From: Hypomesus transpacificus
Taxonomy: Eukaryota; Chordata; Actinopteri; Osmeriformes; Osmeridae
Assembly: GCF_021917145.1 (NCBI RefSeq)
Contig: NC_061063.1
Span: forward strand, 11,134,516-11,198,515
DNA length: 64,000 bases
Direction: 5' to 3'
Shown: positions 16,115 to 63,622 of the stretch, piece after piece
Layout of the letters: each line of letters begins with the position of its first letter
Position numbering within the stretch: the stretch's first letter is position 1
Notes under the pieces: generated by a model
What the model was told of the DNA's origin: nothing
Seen by the model: the letters and a program-made list of their open reading frames with translations, nothing else
Databases searched by the model: none
Translations under genes and position numbers: made by a program

Positions 16115-22803
<6,689 letters not shown>

Positions 22804-27694: not shown

Positions 27695-29002
27695 ATGGGC
27701 TGCACATCATCGAGGACGGTTCTGCAACCTGAGAAAACCACAGTGTTTAAACCAGAGCCAGGAGCAGTCTACAGGATCCCATCTCTCATCTATCTGAAAG
27801 ACAAACAGACATACCTGGCTTTTGCAGAAAAACGCACTTCCAGAAAGGACGAGGATGCCAAATCCCTTGTGATGCGCAGAGGAACATGTCAAAGTGGATC
27901 CATCCAGGTGAGGATCTCTAATTTCCACATCATAGCAGCATGATCTCAAGGGTTGAGTGAAAGTAGTAACATACCTTTATGAGGTGACCGTTCATCTTTT
28001 ACCATGTTGTCATTTATCATACTGTATGCTATTTCCTGTTTAATCCCCACTGTAGTGGTCTGATGTTGTGGAGCTGAAATCAGCATCTTTACAAGGCTAC
28101 CGCACCATGAACCCTTGTCCTGTCTTTGAGAGGAACACCAAGTCTATCTTCCTGTTCTTCATCTGCATCCTCGGCAACAAGTCAGAGCGTGATCAGATCA
28201 ACAAGCGCAAGAACGCGGCCCGCCTGTGCTACGTCACCAGCGGTGACTATGGGCAAACCTGGAGCCAGGATGTGAAGAATGTGACAGAGAGCACAATCGG
28301 TGACATGGTCAGACACTGGGCCACATTTGCCGTAGGTCCAGGCCATGGTCTTCAGCTTGAGAGTGGAAGGTTGATCATTCCGACCCATGCACAGTACATC
28401 TCTACGACGGTGAAGCCACACGCCCTCGCCGTGTACAGCGACGATTCCGGCAACAAGTGGCACATCGGCGAAATGCTGAAGGATCATTCGGGTGAGTGTG
28501 AGATTGCAGAGATCACTGACCACGAAGGCAGGCATCACGTATACTGCAACTCCCGCAGCACAAGAGGCCACAGAGTGGAGGCCCTAAGTGAGACAGAAGG
28601 GACTTCCTTTGACAAGCCCCGCTTGGCACACCAGCTGGTGGAGACGGGCAAGGGTTGCCAGGGAAGCGTTGTAGGGTTCCCTGCCCCGGGCCCAAGGCTG
28701 GCCGCAAAGGTGGCACCACCTCAGGCAGTCTGACCTGGCTGCTCTACAGCCATCCGACCCACAAGTCCACCAGGAAGAACGTGGGAGTGTATCTGAACCG
28801 CACCCCCGTGCAGAAGTCTAAATGGAGCCGGCCCTGGGTCATCCACTCTGGGCCCAGCGGCTACTCTGACATGGCCTACAATGAGGACCTGAAGAGCTTC
28901 GCCTGTTTGCTGGAATGTGGCAAGGATAGTGAACTGGAACAGATGGCCTTTGTGTCGTTTACCTTATGTGATGTAATTGAGAACACTGATATGAAAATAT
29001 AG
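27695..29002 (+). CDS. neu3: NEU3-type sialidase (one frameshift)
   Basis: Two coding exons, 27695-27907 and 28056-29002, joined in phase. Exo-alpha-sialidases of this type remove sialic acid, NEU3 mainly from gangliosides at the plasma membrane. Seen: the N-terminal YRIP motif (catalytic arginine), LAFAEKRTSRKDEDA (catalytic Asp region), RTMNPCPVFE, a clear Asp box SGDYGQTW and a degenerate one SDDSGNKW, HWATFAVGPGHG, ECEIAEI (Glu), GCQGSV and GYSDM (Tyr). At about 28675-28695, in a CCCCGGGCCC run, the frame slips: the first frame ends at 28733, while KAGRKGGTTSGSLTWLLYSH continues one frame over to a stop at 29000. One base is missing. It may be a sequencing or assembly indel in the GC run or a real lesion. 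Whole length would be about 386 residues, normal for the family. The start MGCTSS is the only ATG in the exon's frame. Confidence 0.85.
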
Positions 29003-56739: not shown

Positions 56740-59700
56740 CTACACGGCGGGCTGCAGTAACTCCTGGAGGTCACAGAGGGCGCTCTTCAGGGTGAGGGCC
56801 AGCGTTTCAGCATGAGTCTCCTCACAGCAGTTGAAGGCCGTTATGGAGAAGTGGACGTGGTCCTGCTGGGGGTTGTAGCACACGGCGTATCCGTCGGGGA
56901 CCAGGGGACCGAAACACATCACGCTGTCTGTGTTGGACGGCACCTATACAGGGGTTACGTCTGATCAGTCTGGTTCAATCATCAGATGGATGGTCGATCC
57001 ACACACCCAAGCAGAGAGGGTGGGTGGTGCCGTGTCTGTCCCAGGGTGTGTAGTGTACAGGTTCCTCTACCGGGGAGGGTGGTGTCTAGTGTGTCGTGTA
57101 CCTTGTTCCAGGTGTGTAGTGTACCCTGTTCCAGGTGTGTAGTGTACCCTGTTCCAGGTGTGTAGTGTACCCTGTTCCAGGTGTGTCGTGTACCCTGTTC
57201 CAGGTGTGTCGTGTACCCTGTTCCAGGTGTGTCGTGTCGTACCTGTCCTGTCCTGAGTTTCCAGTGTGTGGCCAGGCCGTAGGCTGTGTCCATGAACAGT
57301 CTGGGCACGCTCAGTCCCTCCTCTATGGCCTGCAGCTTCAGGCCCAGCAGGTGGCGGTCAATGGCCTGCCCTCTGAGTGCCTGAACAAAATAAATTAAAC
57401 TAAATGAAGGTGTATCGAGAACAGTGAAACAAAAAGGGTGTGGATCAAATGAAATGTTATTTTGGAACTTAACTGACGGTTACCTGGTCAGTGAGAGCAC
57501 TGTAGGCCTCCACAGCTTCTCTTAAGAGTTCCCGCTTGGCTTCCGTCTGAAACACGGACGACACATGTCACAACACCAACTGGCCCCAGATACATAAGTT
57601 TAACACTTTCTTAACCTCTGTCCCTCTCTGTCCCTCTCTGTCCCTCTCTGTCCCTCTCTGTCCCTCTCTGTCCCTCTCTGTCCCTCTCTGTCCCTCTCTC
57701 TCATCTAGAAGGTTCTCTCACCGACACTACCGGGTCATCGAAGGCCATCACGAAGCGGAGCGTCTGATTGGTTGGGGAGCGGATGTAGTCGGTGCGTCCG
57801 CCCCTGAACATGCGCTGAGAGGCCATGTCACAGGAAGGACACAACTCGTGGTGAACTCTGACCCAAGAAGTACACATGCGAAAAAGGATGAAAAGGAACA
57901 TGAGGAATAACAAACGGGTCATCGGCAACAACAAAAAAGAAGAAGTTTCAGAGTCACGTGTGGTCTAGGAGCTTCCTGAATGTTGTGAGATGTTTCTTAC
58001 ACGTCAAATCTAAATCAAAGTGTTTATAAGGAATATTCAGCACCCAGAACCAAATCTTCTTGTGTGTAGTGTCTATGGAGAGGGGGTCTGGTATGAGGAG
58101 CTGACCTGTAGTAGGCCAACTGAATGGCAGCTTGGATGAAGGAGTTGGGGCTGAGATTGTGTTGTTTAGGCAGCTCCTTCCCAAACCGCTGGAAGTTGAA
58201 GCAGTTTATATCCAGGTCGTTGATCAGGCTGTAGGAGAGGGTTGGGACACACAGGTAGAACAGAGGGTTGGGACACACAGGTAGAACAGAGGGTTTGGAC
58301 ACACAGGTAGAACAGAGGGTTGGGACACACAGGTAGAACAGAGGGTTGGGACACACAGGTAGAACAGAGGGTTGGGACACACAGGTAGAACAGAGGGTTG
58401 GGACACACAGGTAGAACAGAGGGTTGGGACACACAGGTAGAACAGAGGGTTGGGACACACAGGTAGAACAGAGGGTTGGGACACACAGGTAGAACAGAGG
58501 GTTGGGACACACAGGTAGAACAGAGGGTTGGGACACACAGGGAGAACAGAGGGTTGGGACACACAGGTAGAACAGAGGGTTGGGACACACAGGTAGAACA
58601 GAGGGTTGGGACACACAGGGAGAACAGAGGGTTGGGACACACAGGTAGAACAGAGGGTTGGGACACACAGGTAGAACAGAGGGTTGGGACACACAGGTAG
58701 AACAGAGGGTTGGGACACACAGGTAGAACAGAGGGTTGGGACACACAGGTAGGGTTAGAAAGTTACCGGCACTTCGGTAGCTCACAGGATGAGTGGGCGT
58801 ACCATGAAGGTTGAGGCCTCACTGCAGTGGGTTGGAATCCATCCTTCACCCATTGCTGCATCACCCTCACTCTCACTGTCTCTCTGGCTCTCTCGTTCAC
58901 TCTCGCTCTCTCTCTCCAGCCATCCATCCATCCATCCAATTAACCATGAAAAATGCCCCCCAAAAAGATAAATTTGACTGATATTAAGAATCAGGGATTG
59001 CCCACAATCTAATAAACCAAAAAGCACAGCAGTCTCTGGATAGAATGATCCACGCTATCAACAACGAGGAATTCAGATTTGTGTTGTTGCATCTTTTCCT
59101 CACGCCTCAGAGCTACGCCGGTAGCTTAGCATTACAGCACCCTCTTAAAATAGCCAGAGGAGGTCAAGGGGGCAGCAAAGCCAACCAGAGCATTATGCCG
59201 AGTGTGTTTTGTCAAGGTTACAGCCACACGGGCCAGATAATCATGTTTACACTTCCCTTTCATGCTTGGCCAGATGCTATGTAGGACTTCATCATAAGTA
59301 AACACAGTCTGCCTGGATAAAGGATTATACCTTCTCCTTACAACTTAGGGTGTCAAACTTTAAACTTAAGGTGTCAAAGTATCTGTGCACTATGCACTTG
59401 ACTAGAAGTATGTGAGTATGTGTGTGTGTGTGTTTTTAGTGACACTCACATGTCCAGGTTCAGCTTTGCGTGCTCTATGTCTCTCTTGATGTCGCGGTCG
59501 ATGGAGAAGTACAGTTTCCTGGGCATGGGCAGGGGTACCAGCGGAGCTCTCTTTGGGTCGGGCTTCTGACTGTGACAGAGGAGAGAGAGACTGAACACCA
59601 CCCTCTCTGCTAAACACCACCCTCTCCCTGCTGAACACCACCCTCTCTCTGCTAAACACCACCCTCTCTCTGCTAAACACCACCCTCTCTCTACTGAACA

Positions 59701-62441
59701 CCACCCTCTCCCTGCTGAACACCACCCTCTCTCTGCTAAACACCACCCTCTCTCTACTGAACACCACCCTCTCCCTGCTAAACACCACCCTCTCTCTTCT
59801 GAACACCACCCTCCCTGCTGAACACCACCCTCCCTGCTGAACACCACCCTCTCCCTGCTGAACACCACCCTCCCTGCTGAACACCACCCTCTCCCTGCTG
59901 AACACCACCCTCCCTGCTGAACACCACCCTCTCCCTGCTGAACACCACCCTCTCCCTGCTGAACACCACCCTCCCTGCTGAACACCACCCTCTCTCTGCT
60001 GAACACCACCCTCTCTCTGCTGAACACCACCCTCTCTCTGCTGAACACCACCCTCCCTGCTGAACACCACCCTCCCTGCTGAACACCACCCTCCCTGCTG
60101 AACACCACCCTCTCTCTGCTGAACACCACCCTCTCCCTGCTGAACACCACCCTCCCTGCTGAACACCACCCTCTCCCTGCTGAACACCACCCTCTCTCTG
60201 CTAAACACCACCCTCTCTCTGCTGAACACCACCCTCTCCCTGCTGAACACCACCCTCTCCATGCTGAACACCACCCTCTCTCTGCTAAACACCACCCTCT
60301 CCCTGCTGAACACCACCCTCCCTGCTGAACACCACCCTCTCCCTGCTGAACACCACCCTCCCTGCTGAACACCACCCTCTCTCTGCTGAACACCACCCTC
60401 TCCCTGCTGAACACCACCCTCCCTGCTGAACACCACCCTCTCTCTGCTAAACACCACCCTCCCTGCTGAACACCACCCTCTCCCTGCTGAACACCACCCT
60501 CTCCCTGCTGAACACCACCCTCCCTGCTGAACACCACCCTCTCTCTGCTGAACACCACCCTCTCTCTGCTGAACACCACCCTCTCTCTGCTGAACACCAC
60601 CCTCCCTGCTGAACACCACCCTCCCTGCTGAACACCACCCTCTCTCTGCTGAACACCACCCTCTCCCTGCTGAACACCACCCTCCCTGCTGAACACCACC
60701 CTCTCCCTGCTGAACACCACCCTCTCTCTGCTAAACACCACCCTCTCTCTGCTGAACACCACCCTCTCCCTGCTGAACACCACCCTCTCCATGCTGAACA
60801 CCACCCTCTCTCTGCTAAACACCACCCTCTCCCTGCTGAACACCACCCTCCCTGCTGAACACCACCCTCTCCCTGCTGAACACCACCCTCCCTGCTGAAC
60901 ACCACCCTCTCTCTGCTGAACACCACCCTCCCTGCTGAACACCACCCTCCCTGCTGAACACCACCCTCTCCCTGCTGAACACCACCCTCCCTGCTGAACA
61001 CCACCCTCTCTCTGCTGAACACCACCCTCTCCCTGCTGAACACCACCCTCCCTGCTGAACACCACCCTCTCCCTGCTGAACACCACCCTCTCTCTGCTAA
61101 ACACCACCCTCTCTCTGCTGAACACCACCCTCTCCCTGCTGAACACCACCCTCTCCATGCTGAACACCACCCTCTCTCTGCTGAACACCACCCTCCCTGC
61201 TGAACACCACCCTCCCTGCTGAACACCACCCTCTCCCTGCTGAACACCACCCTCTCCCTGCTGAACACCACCCTCCCTGCTGAACACCACCCTCTCCATG
61301 CTGAACACCACCCTCCCTGCTGAACACCACCCTCCCTGCTGAACACCACCCTCTCTCTACTGACACCTCCAGCGCAGTCTCTCGGCGGCGTAGTTTTACG
61401 GTGGTTCTACCACAGGTTGGGCAGGCATAACGTTGCTGTGCCCCGCGTACCGCCCGGCTACTGTGCAGGAGTCGTGAAACATCTGTGTTCTCATTGGTCA
61501 TCGCTACACACTCAGAAGAGGAGCGTTTCTGAACCGGTCTAAATGTACGTCTTTGGCCATTTTGAGGCTGTACATGAGGGAAAGCACTCGTGTGTAGGAG
61601 ATGAGACACAGCTCAGCCAGTGAGTGGTGCTGTTCCGAGTTGTCCTACCAGTACTGCAGGATGTGGTCCAGGAGGGTGGCTATAGGCGGACCTTCAGCTG
61701 TGGCCTGCTCATACAAGAGCCCCCAGGAACCATCCTCACCCACCACAAACTGAGGGGGAGGGGGAGGGAGGGAGAGGGGAAAGAAAAGGAGAGAGGGGAA
61801 GAGAGAGGGAGGGGAGCGGAGAGAGAGGAGAGGGTGAAGGGAGTGGAGAGAGAGGAGAGGGTGAGGGGAGAGAGAGAGAAATACGGAGAGACCGGGAGCA
61901 GAGACAAGGGTTGGAGGGAAGGAAAAGGGATGTAGAGTTACCAATCAGCCTACAGACTCTCAACCAATCAGCCTACAGACTCTCAATCAATCAGCCTACA
62001 GACTCTCAACCAATCAGCCTACAGACTCTCAACCAATCAGTGGACATGCGTGTTCAGCGCTGAGCTAAGCTGCATCTCACAGCTCCACCCACCTGTAGCG
62101 TTTTGTCAAACCAGCGGTTTCCACTGTTGGAGTAAGTCCCGCCCCCATGCAGGATTTGGGCGGCCATGCGACTGGAGTACCTGCATGGAGATAACGACGC
62201 ATCATTCACACAACACGTTTACCTTTTTCCTTTTTACCGTGTCTAGAAGGCACACATATTCCCCCAACGTTAATTTCGAACTCTGAGTGGAACAGCTATA
62301 CAAAAATAGAGGCCTACATAGAGCGGAGGACAGGGAGGGCATACTTCTCATCTGATATCCTCATGACAGGAGAATCCAGACACAGGGTGAAGAGTCCCTT
62401 CTCAATCACTCGCACAGACTCCTTATTCAGCTTTTCTGAGT

Positions 62442-62501
<60 letters not shown>

Positions 62502-63622
62502 GAATGCAAAGATTAAGCCTTAAACAGAGGATAAAAATGTGTACTGAATCCTTTCAGTTTGGATCTGATGCCTAAAGATATTCTTCTGTGAGTGATGTGT
62601 ATATGTGTGTGTGTGTGTGTGTGAGTGTGTGAGTGTGTGTGTGTGTGTGTGTGAGTGTCTGCAGCCCACCTCTGAGCAGCCGTGTGTATGCCTGGCCCCA
62701 GGTGTGTCTGTGCTCGCTGGTCAGGATCCCCAGCGGCTCCTTGTCGGTCTTCCAGGACTGGGCCCTGATCCTGAGCAGCTGGCCGTGGATCTGGCTCTCC
62801 GTCATCCTGGAGCCATCGCTGTTGTACACCTCCAGCTGGAAGAACTGGACACACACACCGCACGCACACACACACACACACACACACAGGCTGTGAGGAA
62901 GCAATGCAACTAACAGCCAACTATACAGATCTCTGTTCAGTTTTATTGGTTCTATGGGTTGTGTTCTATTGATTCTGTTGTGTCGATTGATTGACTGACT
63001 GATGACTGTTTCTATTCTATCCTACTGATTTAGTTCTCTTCTATTGATTCAGTTCAGTCCTACTGATTCAGTTCAGTCCTGGAGATTCTGTTCCGTGTTT
63101 GGTTGCAGGCCGGCCAGGTCACCTGGTAGTTGCGCACCACGGTGATGTGCGTAGGGGAGCGGCGGGCGTGGCCGTGGTGCACCACCTGGTCATGTTTAGG
63201 ACCTGGGATCCTGCAGGACGAAAACAGCAGGGGGAACAGCTCCATACACAGAGGCTGACCTCGCATGAACTCCCCTGGCAGCAGACCACTGGGAGGGAGG
63301 GAGGGGGGGGGGGGGGGGGGGGAGGGGGGGGGAGGGGGCAGGGGGGGAGAGAGAGAGGGGGAGAGAGAGCATAGCAGAGATATGGTTACCGTACAGTACA
63401 CTTTATTAAATTTAGACCACCTTTATAAACAAACAACCATCGGTCAACTCTTTTGGGCTAAAGGTCAACGAGTCAAAATAGCAGTGAGAGACTTGGCATC
63501 TAGGTCACAACACAGATCCACCTTTCCTTTTTTACATTATTAATATTAATTATATTAGTGCGACTCACTTGTTCACTTTGGCTTTGAAATCTAGCACGGC
63601 TGCGATCAACTTAGACGCAAAC
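56740..63622 (-). CDS. Carnitine O-acetyltransferase-like protein, active site lost (3' 12 exons)
   Basis: Twelve phase-consistent exons: 63569-63622, 63123-63288, 62670-62844, 62345-62435, 62093-62180, 61649-61749, 59450-59569, 58106-58228, 57722-57857, 57484-57546, 57243-57380 and 56740-56943. They give 485 residues, matching CRAT from about residue 139 to the end; the 5' exons lie beyond the window. Recognised: FASKLIAAVLDFK, GQPLCMELF, PTHITVVRNYQFF, GILTSEHRHTWGQAY, SGNRWFDKTLQ, AEGPPIATLLDHIL, PLVPLPMP and FGKELPK (both CoA-side lysines). CRAT swaps acetyl groups between CoA and carnitine. Here the catalytic His343 is Gln (YEQATAEG), Tyr452 is Cys (CPSCDMAS), Ser552-Thr-Ser554 is Arg-Thr-Gly (LRTGQV), Phe565 is Cys, and the C-terminal AKL peroxisome signal is replaced by PAV. 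Thr465 and Arg518 remain. Numbers follow mammalian CRAT. Family certain; activity very doubtful. Confidence 0.93.
57060..57240. repeat. 22-23 bp minisatellite in last crat-like intron
   Basis: Six to seven copies of GTACCCTGTTCCAGGTGTGTAG (or GTGTCG). It begins at the donor of the 57243-57380 exon. Confidence 0.9.
57615..57710. repeat. (TCTGTCCCTCTC)n array
   Basis: Eight copies of a 12-bp unit right next to the donor of the 57722-57857 exon. Confidence 0.93.
58232..58755. repeat. 26-bp minisatellite abutting a 3' splice site
   Basis: About twenty nearly identical copies of AGGGTTGGGACACACAGGTA + GAACAG (26 bp), with a GGGAGAACAG variant twice. In transcript sense (CTGTTCTACC + TGTGTGTCCCAACCCT) it runs to within a few bases of the acceptor of the 58106-58228 exon. 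The 164-253 residue open frames across it are repeat shadows. Confidence 0.96.
58765..58975 (+). mobile_element. tRNA-derived SINE (same family as 16588)
   Basis: CGGTAGCTCACAGGATGAGT (A box), CAGTGGGTTGGAATCCATCC (B box), CATTGCTGCATCACCCTCAC, CT-rich body, AACCATGAAAAATGCCCCCC tail. Lies in the crat-like intron, antisense. Confidence 0.8.
59593..61365. repeat. 19/21-bp minisatellite with higher-order structure
   Basis: About 1.77 kb, near ninety units of AACACCACCCTCCCTGCTG (19 bp) and AACACCACCCTCTCCCTGCTG (21 bp), with CTCTCTGCTA and CTCCATGCTG variants. The order of variants repeats as blocks (see findings). Whole array lies in one crat-like intron. It generates very long minus-strand frames (up to 621 codons) that are not genes. 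Confidence 0.97.
61750..61930. repeat. GA-rich tract
   Basis: GGGGAGGGAGGGAGAGGGGA-type purine sequence starting at the 3' splice site of the 61649-61749 exon (its polypyrimidine tract in transcript sense). Confidence 0.85.
61938..62042. repeat. Short tandem repeat, 24-25 bp
   Basis: Four copies of CAATCAGCCTACAGACTCTC + AAC in a crat-like intron. Confidence 0.9.
62452..62500. repeat. (GA)n microsatellite
   Basis: About 45 bp of GA, a few bases upstream of the 62345-62435 exon in transcript sense. Confidence 0.95.
62604..62655. repeat. (GT)n microsatellite
   Basis: GT run with GA interruptions between the 62345-62435 and 62670-62844 exons. Confidence 0.93.
63296..63370. repeat. G-rich tract
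   Basis: G runs of 7-18 broken by single A, followed by GA. In transcript sense a C-rich polypyrimidine tract beside the 63123-63288 exon acceptor. Confidence 0.88.

Follow-up and report, generated by a model that had tools for sequence, protein, structure and literature searches.

Cratb of the smelt Hypomesus transpacificus, a carnitine acetyltransferase paralogue and candidate pseudoenzyme

The cratb locus and its active-site residues

We analyzed a window of 64,000 nucleotides of the Hypomesus transpacificus genome (assembly GCF_021917145.1, contig NC_061063.1, here designated C4; C4:11134516-11198515), which carries cratb, a paralogue of the carnitine acetyltransferase (CRAT) gene, on the minus strand at window positions 56740-63622. 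Twelve exons with AG/GT borders throughout, the final one closing on a TAG stop, encode 485 codons with no frameshift and no internal stop. This is the intact gene structure that an initial annotation of the window had described. The gene extends beyond the window edge: three additional coding exons in the adjoining 10 kb (C4:11198623-11198741, C4:11199083-11199307, and C4:11199495-11199545) join in frame, giving 617 residues from ATG to stop. The protein aligns without gaps, at 97.4% identity, with the Osmerus mordax protein deposited as 'carnitine O-acetyltransferase b' (P0001). Its window portion also aligned without gaps to mouse CRAT (1ndb; 624 bits; window residues 1 to 482) and matched the choline/carnitine acyltransferase profile PF00755 with 481.2 bits against a cut-off of 22.3, over profile positions 104-573 of 574.

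All coding exons of the window lie on the minus strand, and residues are given in mouse CRAT numbering. The window's first coding exon, which is the gene's fourth (63569-63622), is followed by exons at 63123-63288 and 62670-62844, the latter containing the paralogue-specific residues R237, W241-K242, and D244 (codons 62766-62743). Exons at 62345-62435 and 62093-62180 precede the exon with position 343 and Glu347 (61649-61749). After an exon at 59450-59569 come the exon encoding the coenzyme A (CoA) lysines K419 (58177-58179) and K423 (58165-58167), at 58106-58228, and the exon with Cys452 (57830-57832) and Thr465 (57791-57793), at 57722-57857. The last three exons are at 57484-57546, at 57243-57380, with Arg518 (57354-57356) and an Arg-Thr-Gly (RTG) motif (57246-57254), and at 56740-56943, where the terminal exon encodes Met564-Cys565-Phe566 and ends at the stop without a type 1 peroxisomal targeting signal (PTS1). 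An intron minisatellite of approximately 87 copies of a 21-bp unit occupies 59591-61367, and a second minisatellite, of approximately 20 copies of a 26-bp unit, lies at 58236-58752.

Carnitine/choline acyltransferases are built around one histidine. We take Tyr452, Thr465, Arg518, Ser552, and Ser554 to have carnitine-side roles, with Thr465 and Arg518 presumably clamping the carnitine carboxylate and Ser554 presumably acting as the oxyanion serine. One report describes the histidine as the general base in related enzymes (His343), K419 and K423 as contacts of the CoA 3'-phosphate, and D430 and E453 as a pair on the CoA side (PMC11852590). In smelt Cratb, codon 343 is CAG (61705-61707), and Gln thus replaces the catalytic His. 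Position 452 is Cys rather than the Tyr of mouse CRAT, and the Ser552-Thr553-Ser554 (STS) motif is Arg-Thr-Gly. The protein ends in PAV, with the AKL signal lost. K419 and K423, the two 3'-phosphate lysines, are retained, as are Thr465, Arg518, Thr553, Met564, and Phe566. The pair Asp430/Glu453 has become Asn430/Asp453. The Val465/Asn518 combination of the choline-type pocket is absent, Thr465 and Arg518 standing in its place. The initial annotation had read the changes at 343, 452, 552-554, and the C terminus, and the retention of the CoA-side lysines, Thr465, and Arg518, correctly.

Canonical crat was expected elsewhere in the same genome, and crata was found on contig C22 with YEHAPAEG, ATYESAS, STSQV, and MCFGP motifs and a C-terminal AKL. 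It therefore has the His, Tyr, STS, and AKL that Cratb lacks. The two proteins share the PF00755 fold family, K419/K423, Thr465, Arg518, Thr553, Met564, and Phe566; Cratb differs in Gln343, Cys452, Arg552, Gly554, the missing PTS1, and its placement in a separate clade. The initial annotation had also listed Phe565Cys among the active-site lesions. Position 565 is indeed Cys in smelt Cratb (56916-56914) and Phe in mouse CRAT. However, Cys565 is also present in smelt crata and in seven of eight canonical sequences, and the substitution was therefore rejected as a lesion and lies outside any dismantling of the site.

Including crata, 10 further PF00755 loci were found in the smelt genome, all of which keep the His. 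By their matches the others are two ChAT, four CPT1-like, one CPT2, one CROT-like, and one divergent locus; the names are interpretations based on these matches, and for the CROT-like locus the motif was identified by visual inspection of the reading frames. ChAT, although of the same family, differs from Cratb in that smelt chata retains both the His and the STS motif and carries Val465/Asn518. The divergent carnitine-acyltransferase-like gene, which lies outside the window at C17:699000-702500 (L016:571-3500), keeps the His, and its last open frame matches both PF00755 (62 bits) and Asparaginase_2, PF01112 (147 bits), so that a fusion protein is possible.

Orthologues and the history of position 343

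Homologue listings comprised the best 120 of 1255, the best 120 of 1323, and the best 120 of 298 matches. Among the best 120 of 1255, position 343 is Gln in 102, His in 13, Pro in 3, and Ala in 2; position 452 is Cys in 118; and 552-554 is RTG in all 120. The initial annotation had proposed checking whether Gln343 and RTG are shared across species, and the change is shared by orthologues. O. mordax P0001 likewise has Gln343, which independently supports the CAG codon, and an artifact of sequencing or assembly at this codon is ruled out by this sequence and by Gln in most of the listed homologues. Many of the best 120 homologues carry the ordinary acetyltransferase name. One of the paralogues, Epinephelus coioides Cratb (P0010), which has Pro343, is deposited as 'Catalase', perhaps via the abbreviation CAT.

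The search with a paddlefish stretch (best 120 of 298) added sturgeon, bichir, bowfin, gar, lungfish, and coelacanth sequences, together with those of rays, skates, a caecilian, axolotl, lizards, turtles, and an alligator. Gln343 is found in coelacanth, lungfish, bichir, paddlefish, gar, bowfin, ray, skate, caecilian, lizard, turtle, and alligator; axolotl and one sequence listed beside it have Ala343. All 17 non-teleost sequences examined have Gly554. Some of the fetched proteins are partial or poorly modelled (e.g., P0144, P0152, and P0182). In 179 proteins with Gly554, the residue at 343 is Gln in 151, His in 15, Ala in 5, Pro in 3, Thr in 1, and a gap in 4. Proteins with Ser554 have His343 in 20 of 20 cases, at least 11 of these being mouse or mouse-like. 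Because both sets were sorted on residue 554 itself, the information comes from the remaining columns only; 8 more proteins, which have neither Gly nor Ser at 554 but another residue or a gap, were excluded.

A tree was built from 66 sequences: 56 paralogues (the window and 55 database proteins hand-picked for spread from 206 fetched, including some partial or poor models), only 8 canonical sequences (of which P0202 and P0204 are odd at the C terminus), and the 2 ChAT sequences of the smelt genome as outgroup. All paralogue sequences form a single clade (support 99/99), and the canonical fish and mammal sequences form another (95/88). When six active-site columns were removed, the paralogue clade kept a support of 99 and the canonical clade one of 84. 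Branching within the paralogue clade broadly matches fish and tetrapod relationships. The paralogue clade includes rays, ray-finned fishes, coelacanth, lungfish, amphibians, turtles, and lizards, and therefore the duplication is older than the split between cartilaginous and bony fishes. It may have arisen in an early whole-genome duplication, but the positions of Pbx genes, which are on neither C4 nor C22, did not support this. The age of the duplication is taken from the tree, because the Pbx check lent no support.

Of the 56 paralogue sequences in the tree, 40 have Gln at position 343, 10 have His (Mola among them), 4 have Ala, and 2 have Pro, so that His is absent from 46; Gly554 is present in 56 of 56, Ser554 having been lost in every one. 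The Mola His343 comes from a mis-spliced gene model and was left out of the change counts. The cheapest root state is Gln at 343 (8 steps versus 10 for His) and Cys at 452 (7 steps versus 9 for Tyr, with Tyr in one turtle sequence). Gly554 requires zero changes within the clade. At 552 the cheapest root state is Ser, with Arg a later, ray-fin change. The initial annotation had counted four independent losses in this gene. That count was rejected, because Gln343 and Gly554 trace back to the root of this clade. The reconstruction indicates that His343, Ser554, and Tyr452 were lost early in cratb, a paralogue as old as the gnathostomes.

The histidine did not stay lost everywhere. His versus not-His requires three changes within the clade, in Cypriniformes (where P0071, a His sequence, also groups), Paramormyrops, and Aldrovandia. 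These are read as gains because the sequences sit among Gln sequences; the Paramormyrops and Aldrovandia gains are each represented by one sequence, and outside this position the gene model of Aldrovandia is of poor quality. Cys452, Arg552, and Gly554 are all present in the 14 of 14 His sequences examined, and thus the rest of the carnitine/oxyanion site was not restored. Fish orthologues with both His343 and STS had been named in advance as evidence that would overturn the idea of a conserved change: some orthologues have His343, none of them with STS. Gln343 is therefore not fixed, since His343 has re-appeared. With the re-gain in three lineages as the qualification, the catalytic residues have been lost and the loss has been kept across orthologues, which is the pattern by which a pseudoenzyme is recognized.

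Constraint, location, and likely function of Cratb

Site rates were estimated from 51 paralogue sequences, five broken models (P0143, P0127, P0101, P0150, and P0151) having been dropped. By rate percentile, Q555 (2), K423 (8), G554 (19), M564 (19), T553 (24), E347 (30), F566 (34), K419 (38), and T465 (42) lie below 343 (60), R518 (63), 552 (67), and 452 (74), which change at ordinary rates; the rates of the two CoA lysines are slow to moderate. A 14-site ligand set of our own choosing is slower than random sets, of which 156 of 20000 were equally low, whereas the four replaced sites are no slower than random, with 9101 of 20000 sets as low. The percentiles therefore suggest that the 3'-phosphate lysines and the wall by Gly554 are constrained and that the carnitine-activating side is relaxed. 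Sixteen columns are near-fixed within each clade but differ between the paralogue and canonical clades. Ser554Gly is one of these, and four others (W237R, L241W, Q242K, and N244D) are clustered, making the 237-244 stretch a candidate partner surface. The predicted structure of Cratb has a mean predicted local distance difference test (pLDDT) score of 68.4, with residues 536-566 below 50, and no pocket geometry was drawn from it.

None of the 56 paralogue sequences ends in a PTS1-like tripeptide, and in 51 of 55 the first 25 residues have a net charge of at least +2. A basic N terminus fits import into mitochondria, and Cratb is probably mitochondrial. Full-length frames of 613 amino acids on at most 3292 bases (P0018) and 631 amino acids on at most 2207 bases (P0165) come from contigs that appear to be spliced transcripts. 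In earlier studies, cratb is reported as up in grass carp liver in a study of hypoxia (PMC12729821), tilapia crata and cratb, termed cact, are described as 'bidirectionally' regulated (PMC13303720), and a salmon 'carnitine O-acetyltransferase-like' protein is tabulated (PMC8774099).

We consider it fairly probable that Cratb is a conserved, CoA-binding, and probably mitochondrial pseudoenzyme. The non-catalytic half of this reading follows from the lost residues and the CoA-holding half from the kept ones; the lack of catalysis is the more secure claim, and a role as a sensor is a proposal. In such a protein the acyltransferase fold would be kept while the general base His343, the oxyanion Ser554, and the carnitine-site Tyr452 would have gone early. 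Protons would not be abstracted from carnitine or CoA, leaving little or no carnitine acetyltransferase activity. CoA or a short acyl-CoA would be held via the retained K419/K423 side, and Cratb, probably imported into mitochondria in view of its basic N terminus and lack of PTS1, might report, buffer, hold, or sense CoA esters, or bind a partner, perhaps via the 237-244 stretch. A more specific version is put forward tentatively. In it Cratb is a gnathostome-old mitochondrial CoA-ester sensor, separate from the active enzyme since before the divergence of rays and bony fishes, whose dead site regained His at least three times with the rest unrestored, so that one enzyme center would offer a natural experiment in losing and regaining a residue.

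The initial annotation had already proposed a conserved pseudoenzyme. The shared change, the existence of canonical crata, and the widespread full-length frames support that proposal, and several observations weigh against it. His343 came back in at least three lineages. T465 is kept in 53 of 56 sequences and R518 in 51 of 56, and an inert carnitine site would not need them. K419 is kept in 54 of 56 and K423 in 56 of 56, but the CoA side is not untouched, because the tree's two turtle sequences have Q or R in place of K419 and the D430/E453 pair is ND in 30 of 56 and DE in 19 of 56, a linked change inside the paralogue clade. The paralogue is also faster than the enzyme between smelt and Megalops (0.426 for cratb versus 0.252 for crata). 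Some of these points favor the main rival, a serious if unlikely one, in which Cratb remains catalytically active but carries out a different reaction, its carnitine pocket, altered by the loss of the His, Tyr, and Ser side chains, taking another acceptor or water. His343 would then be dispensable in most lineages, with catalysis substrate-assisted or dependent on an alternative base (e.g., Glu347). In favor of this rival, Gly554 does not drift but is invariant, T553, Q555, M564, and Glu347 remain slow, T465 and R518 are mostly retained, and His343 re-appeared three times. However, related enzymes use the His as the general base (PMC11852590). A position 343 that is Q, H, A, or P and changes at an ordinary rate is odd for a working center, and 452, 518, and 552 are also variable.

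It is improbable that the family is mixed, with some acetylcarnitine made in the His343 lineages (Cypriniformes, Paramormyrops, and Aldrovandia), where the base would have been lost and then regained, and a dead protein elsewhere. Mola aside, 9 of 9 His sequences in the tree do fall in these groups, within clades that are otherwise Gln (singly Pro or Ala), but Cys452, Arg552, and Gly554 remain in every His sequence examined, and two of the three groups have the thin sampling noted above. Still less probable is a relaxed or dying gene. Across fish-tetrapod spans cratb has changed faster than crata (1.252 changes per site for Megalops-Anolis cratb versus 0.465 for Megalops-mouse crata), and no paralogue sequence named from a mammal or bird is among the best 120 of 298 matches. 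Against decay, frames are full-length in rays, lizards, and teleosts, 210 of 626 columns are at least 95% identical within the paralogue clade, and the splice sites in the window are complete. Between smelt and Hemibagrus the distances are equal (0.505 for cratb and 0.507 for crata), the Hemibagrus crata sequence being odd-looking. These comparisons indicate weaker constraint on cratb than on the crata enzyme, yet a gene far from decayed.

A non-catalytic, CoA-binding Cratb would have working parallels elsewhere. CPT1C, a carnitine acyltransferase homologue of very low transferase activity, is reported to have approximately 100-fold lower transferase activity and to bind palmitoyl-CoA; it differs from Cratb, a CRAT rather than a CPT1, in keeping and needing His470, where most Cratb proteins lack the base (PMC6092487). 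A second possible parallel in working principle is E3BP, which lost its catalytic His. E3BP belongs to a different family and serves the core of a complex; it is described as a noncatalytic homologue of the acyltransferase E2 within the pyruvate dehydrogenase complex (PMC9681731).

A paralogue that has lacked the histidine since about the gnathostome ancestor points to an unrecognized role in acyl-CoA handling, and the naturally occurring variants at 343 (Gln, His, Ala, and Pro) allow direct testing. Databases list this probably non-acetylating relative as an ordinary enzyme. A cypriniform, coming from the order that regained His and to which zebrafish belongs, may misrepresent the Cratb of smelt, gar, or ray. 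Zebrafish Cratb is the same gene by name; the cypriniform Cratb sequences seen have His343, none of them identified as zebrafish. A zebrafish report describes Cratb without PTS1, in agreement with the paralogue sequences of the tree, and Crata with AKL, and names Cratb a carnitine O-acetyltransferase (PMC8919083). No paper on a CRAT paralogue lacking the His, or naming one a pseudoenzyme, was found in the open-access literature listings searched, one of which showed 10 of 312 papers.

Neighboring genes

Pfam supports CLIC, palmitoyl thioesterase, ribosomal S7/S5e, and a sialidase-like BNR protein as neighbors of cratb, and Ly6 weakly. It gave nothing on the stretch tried of a putative ddah2, whose name is an interpretation. 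An MHC (major histocompatibility complex) class III-like setting of the locus is plausible. Two similar sialidase-like stretches lie on the plus strand at 20966-21346 and 28056-28733; the second matches BNR_2, and the first resembles its start by eye.

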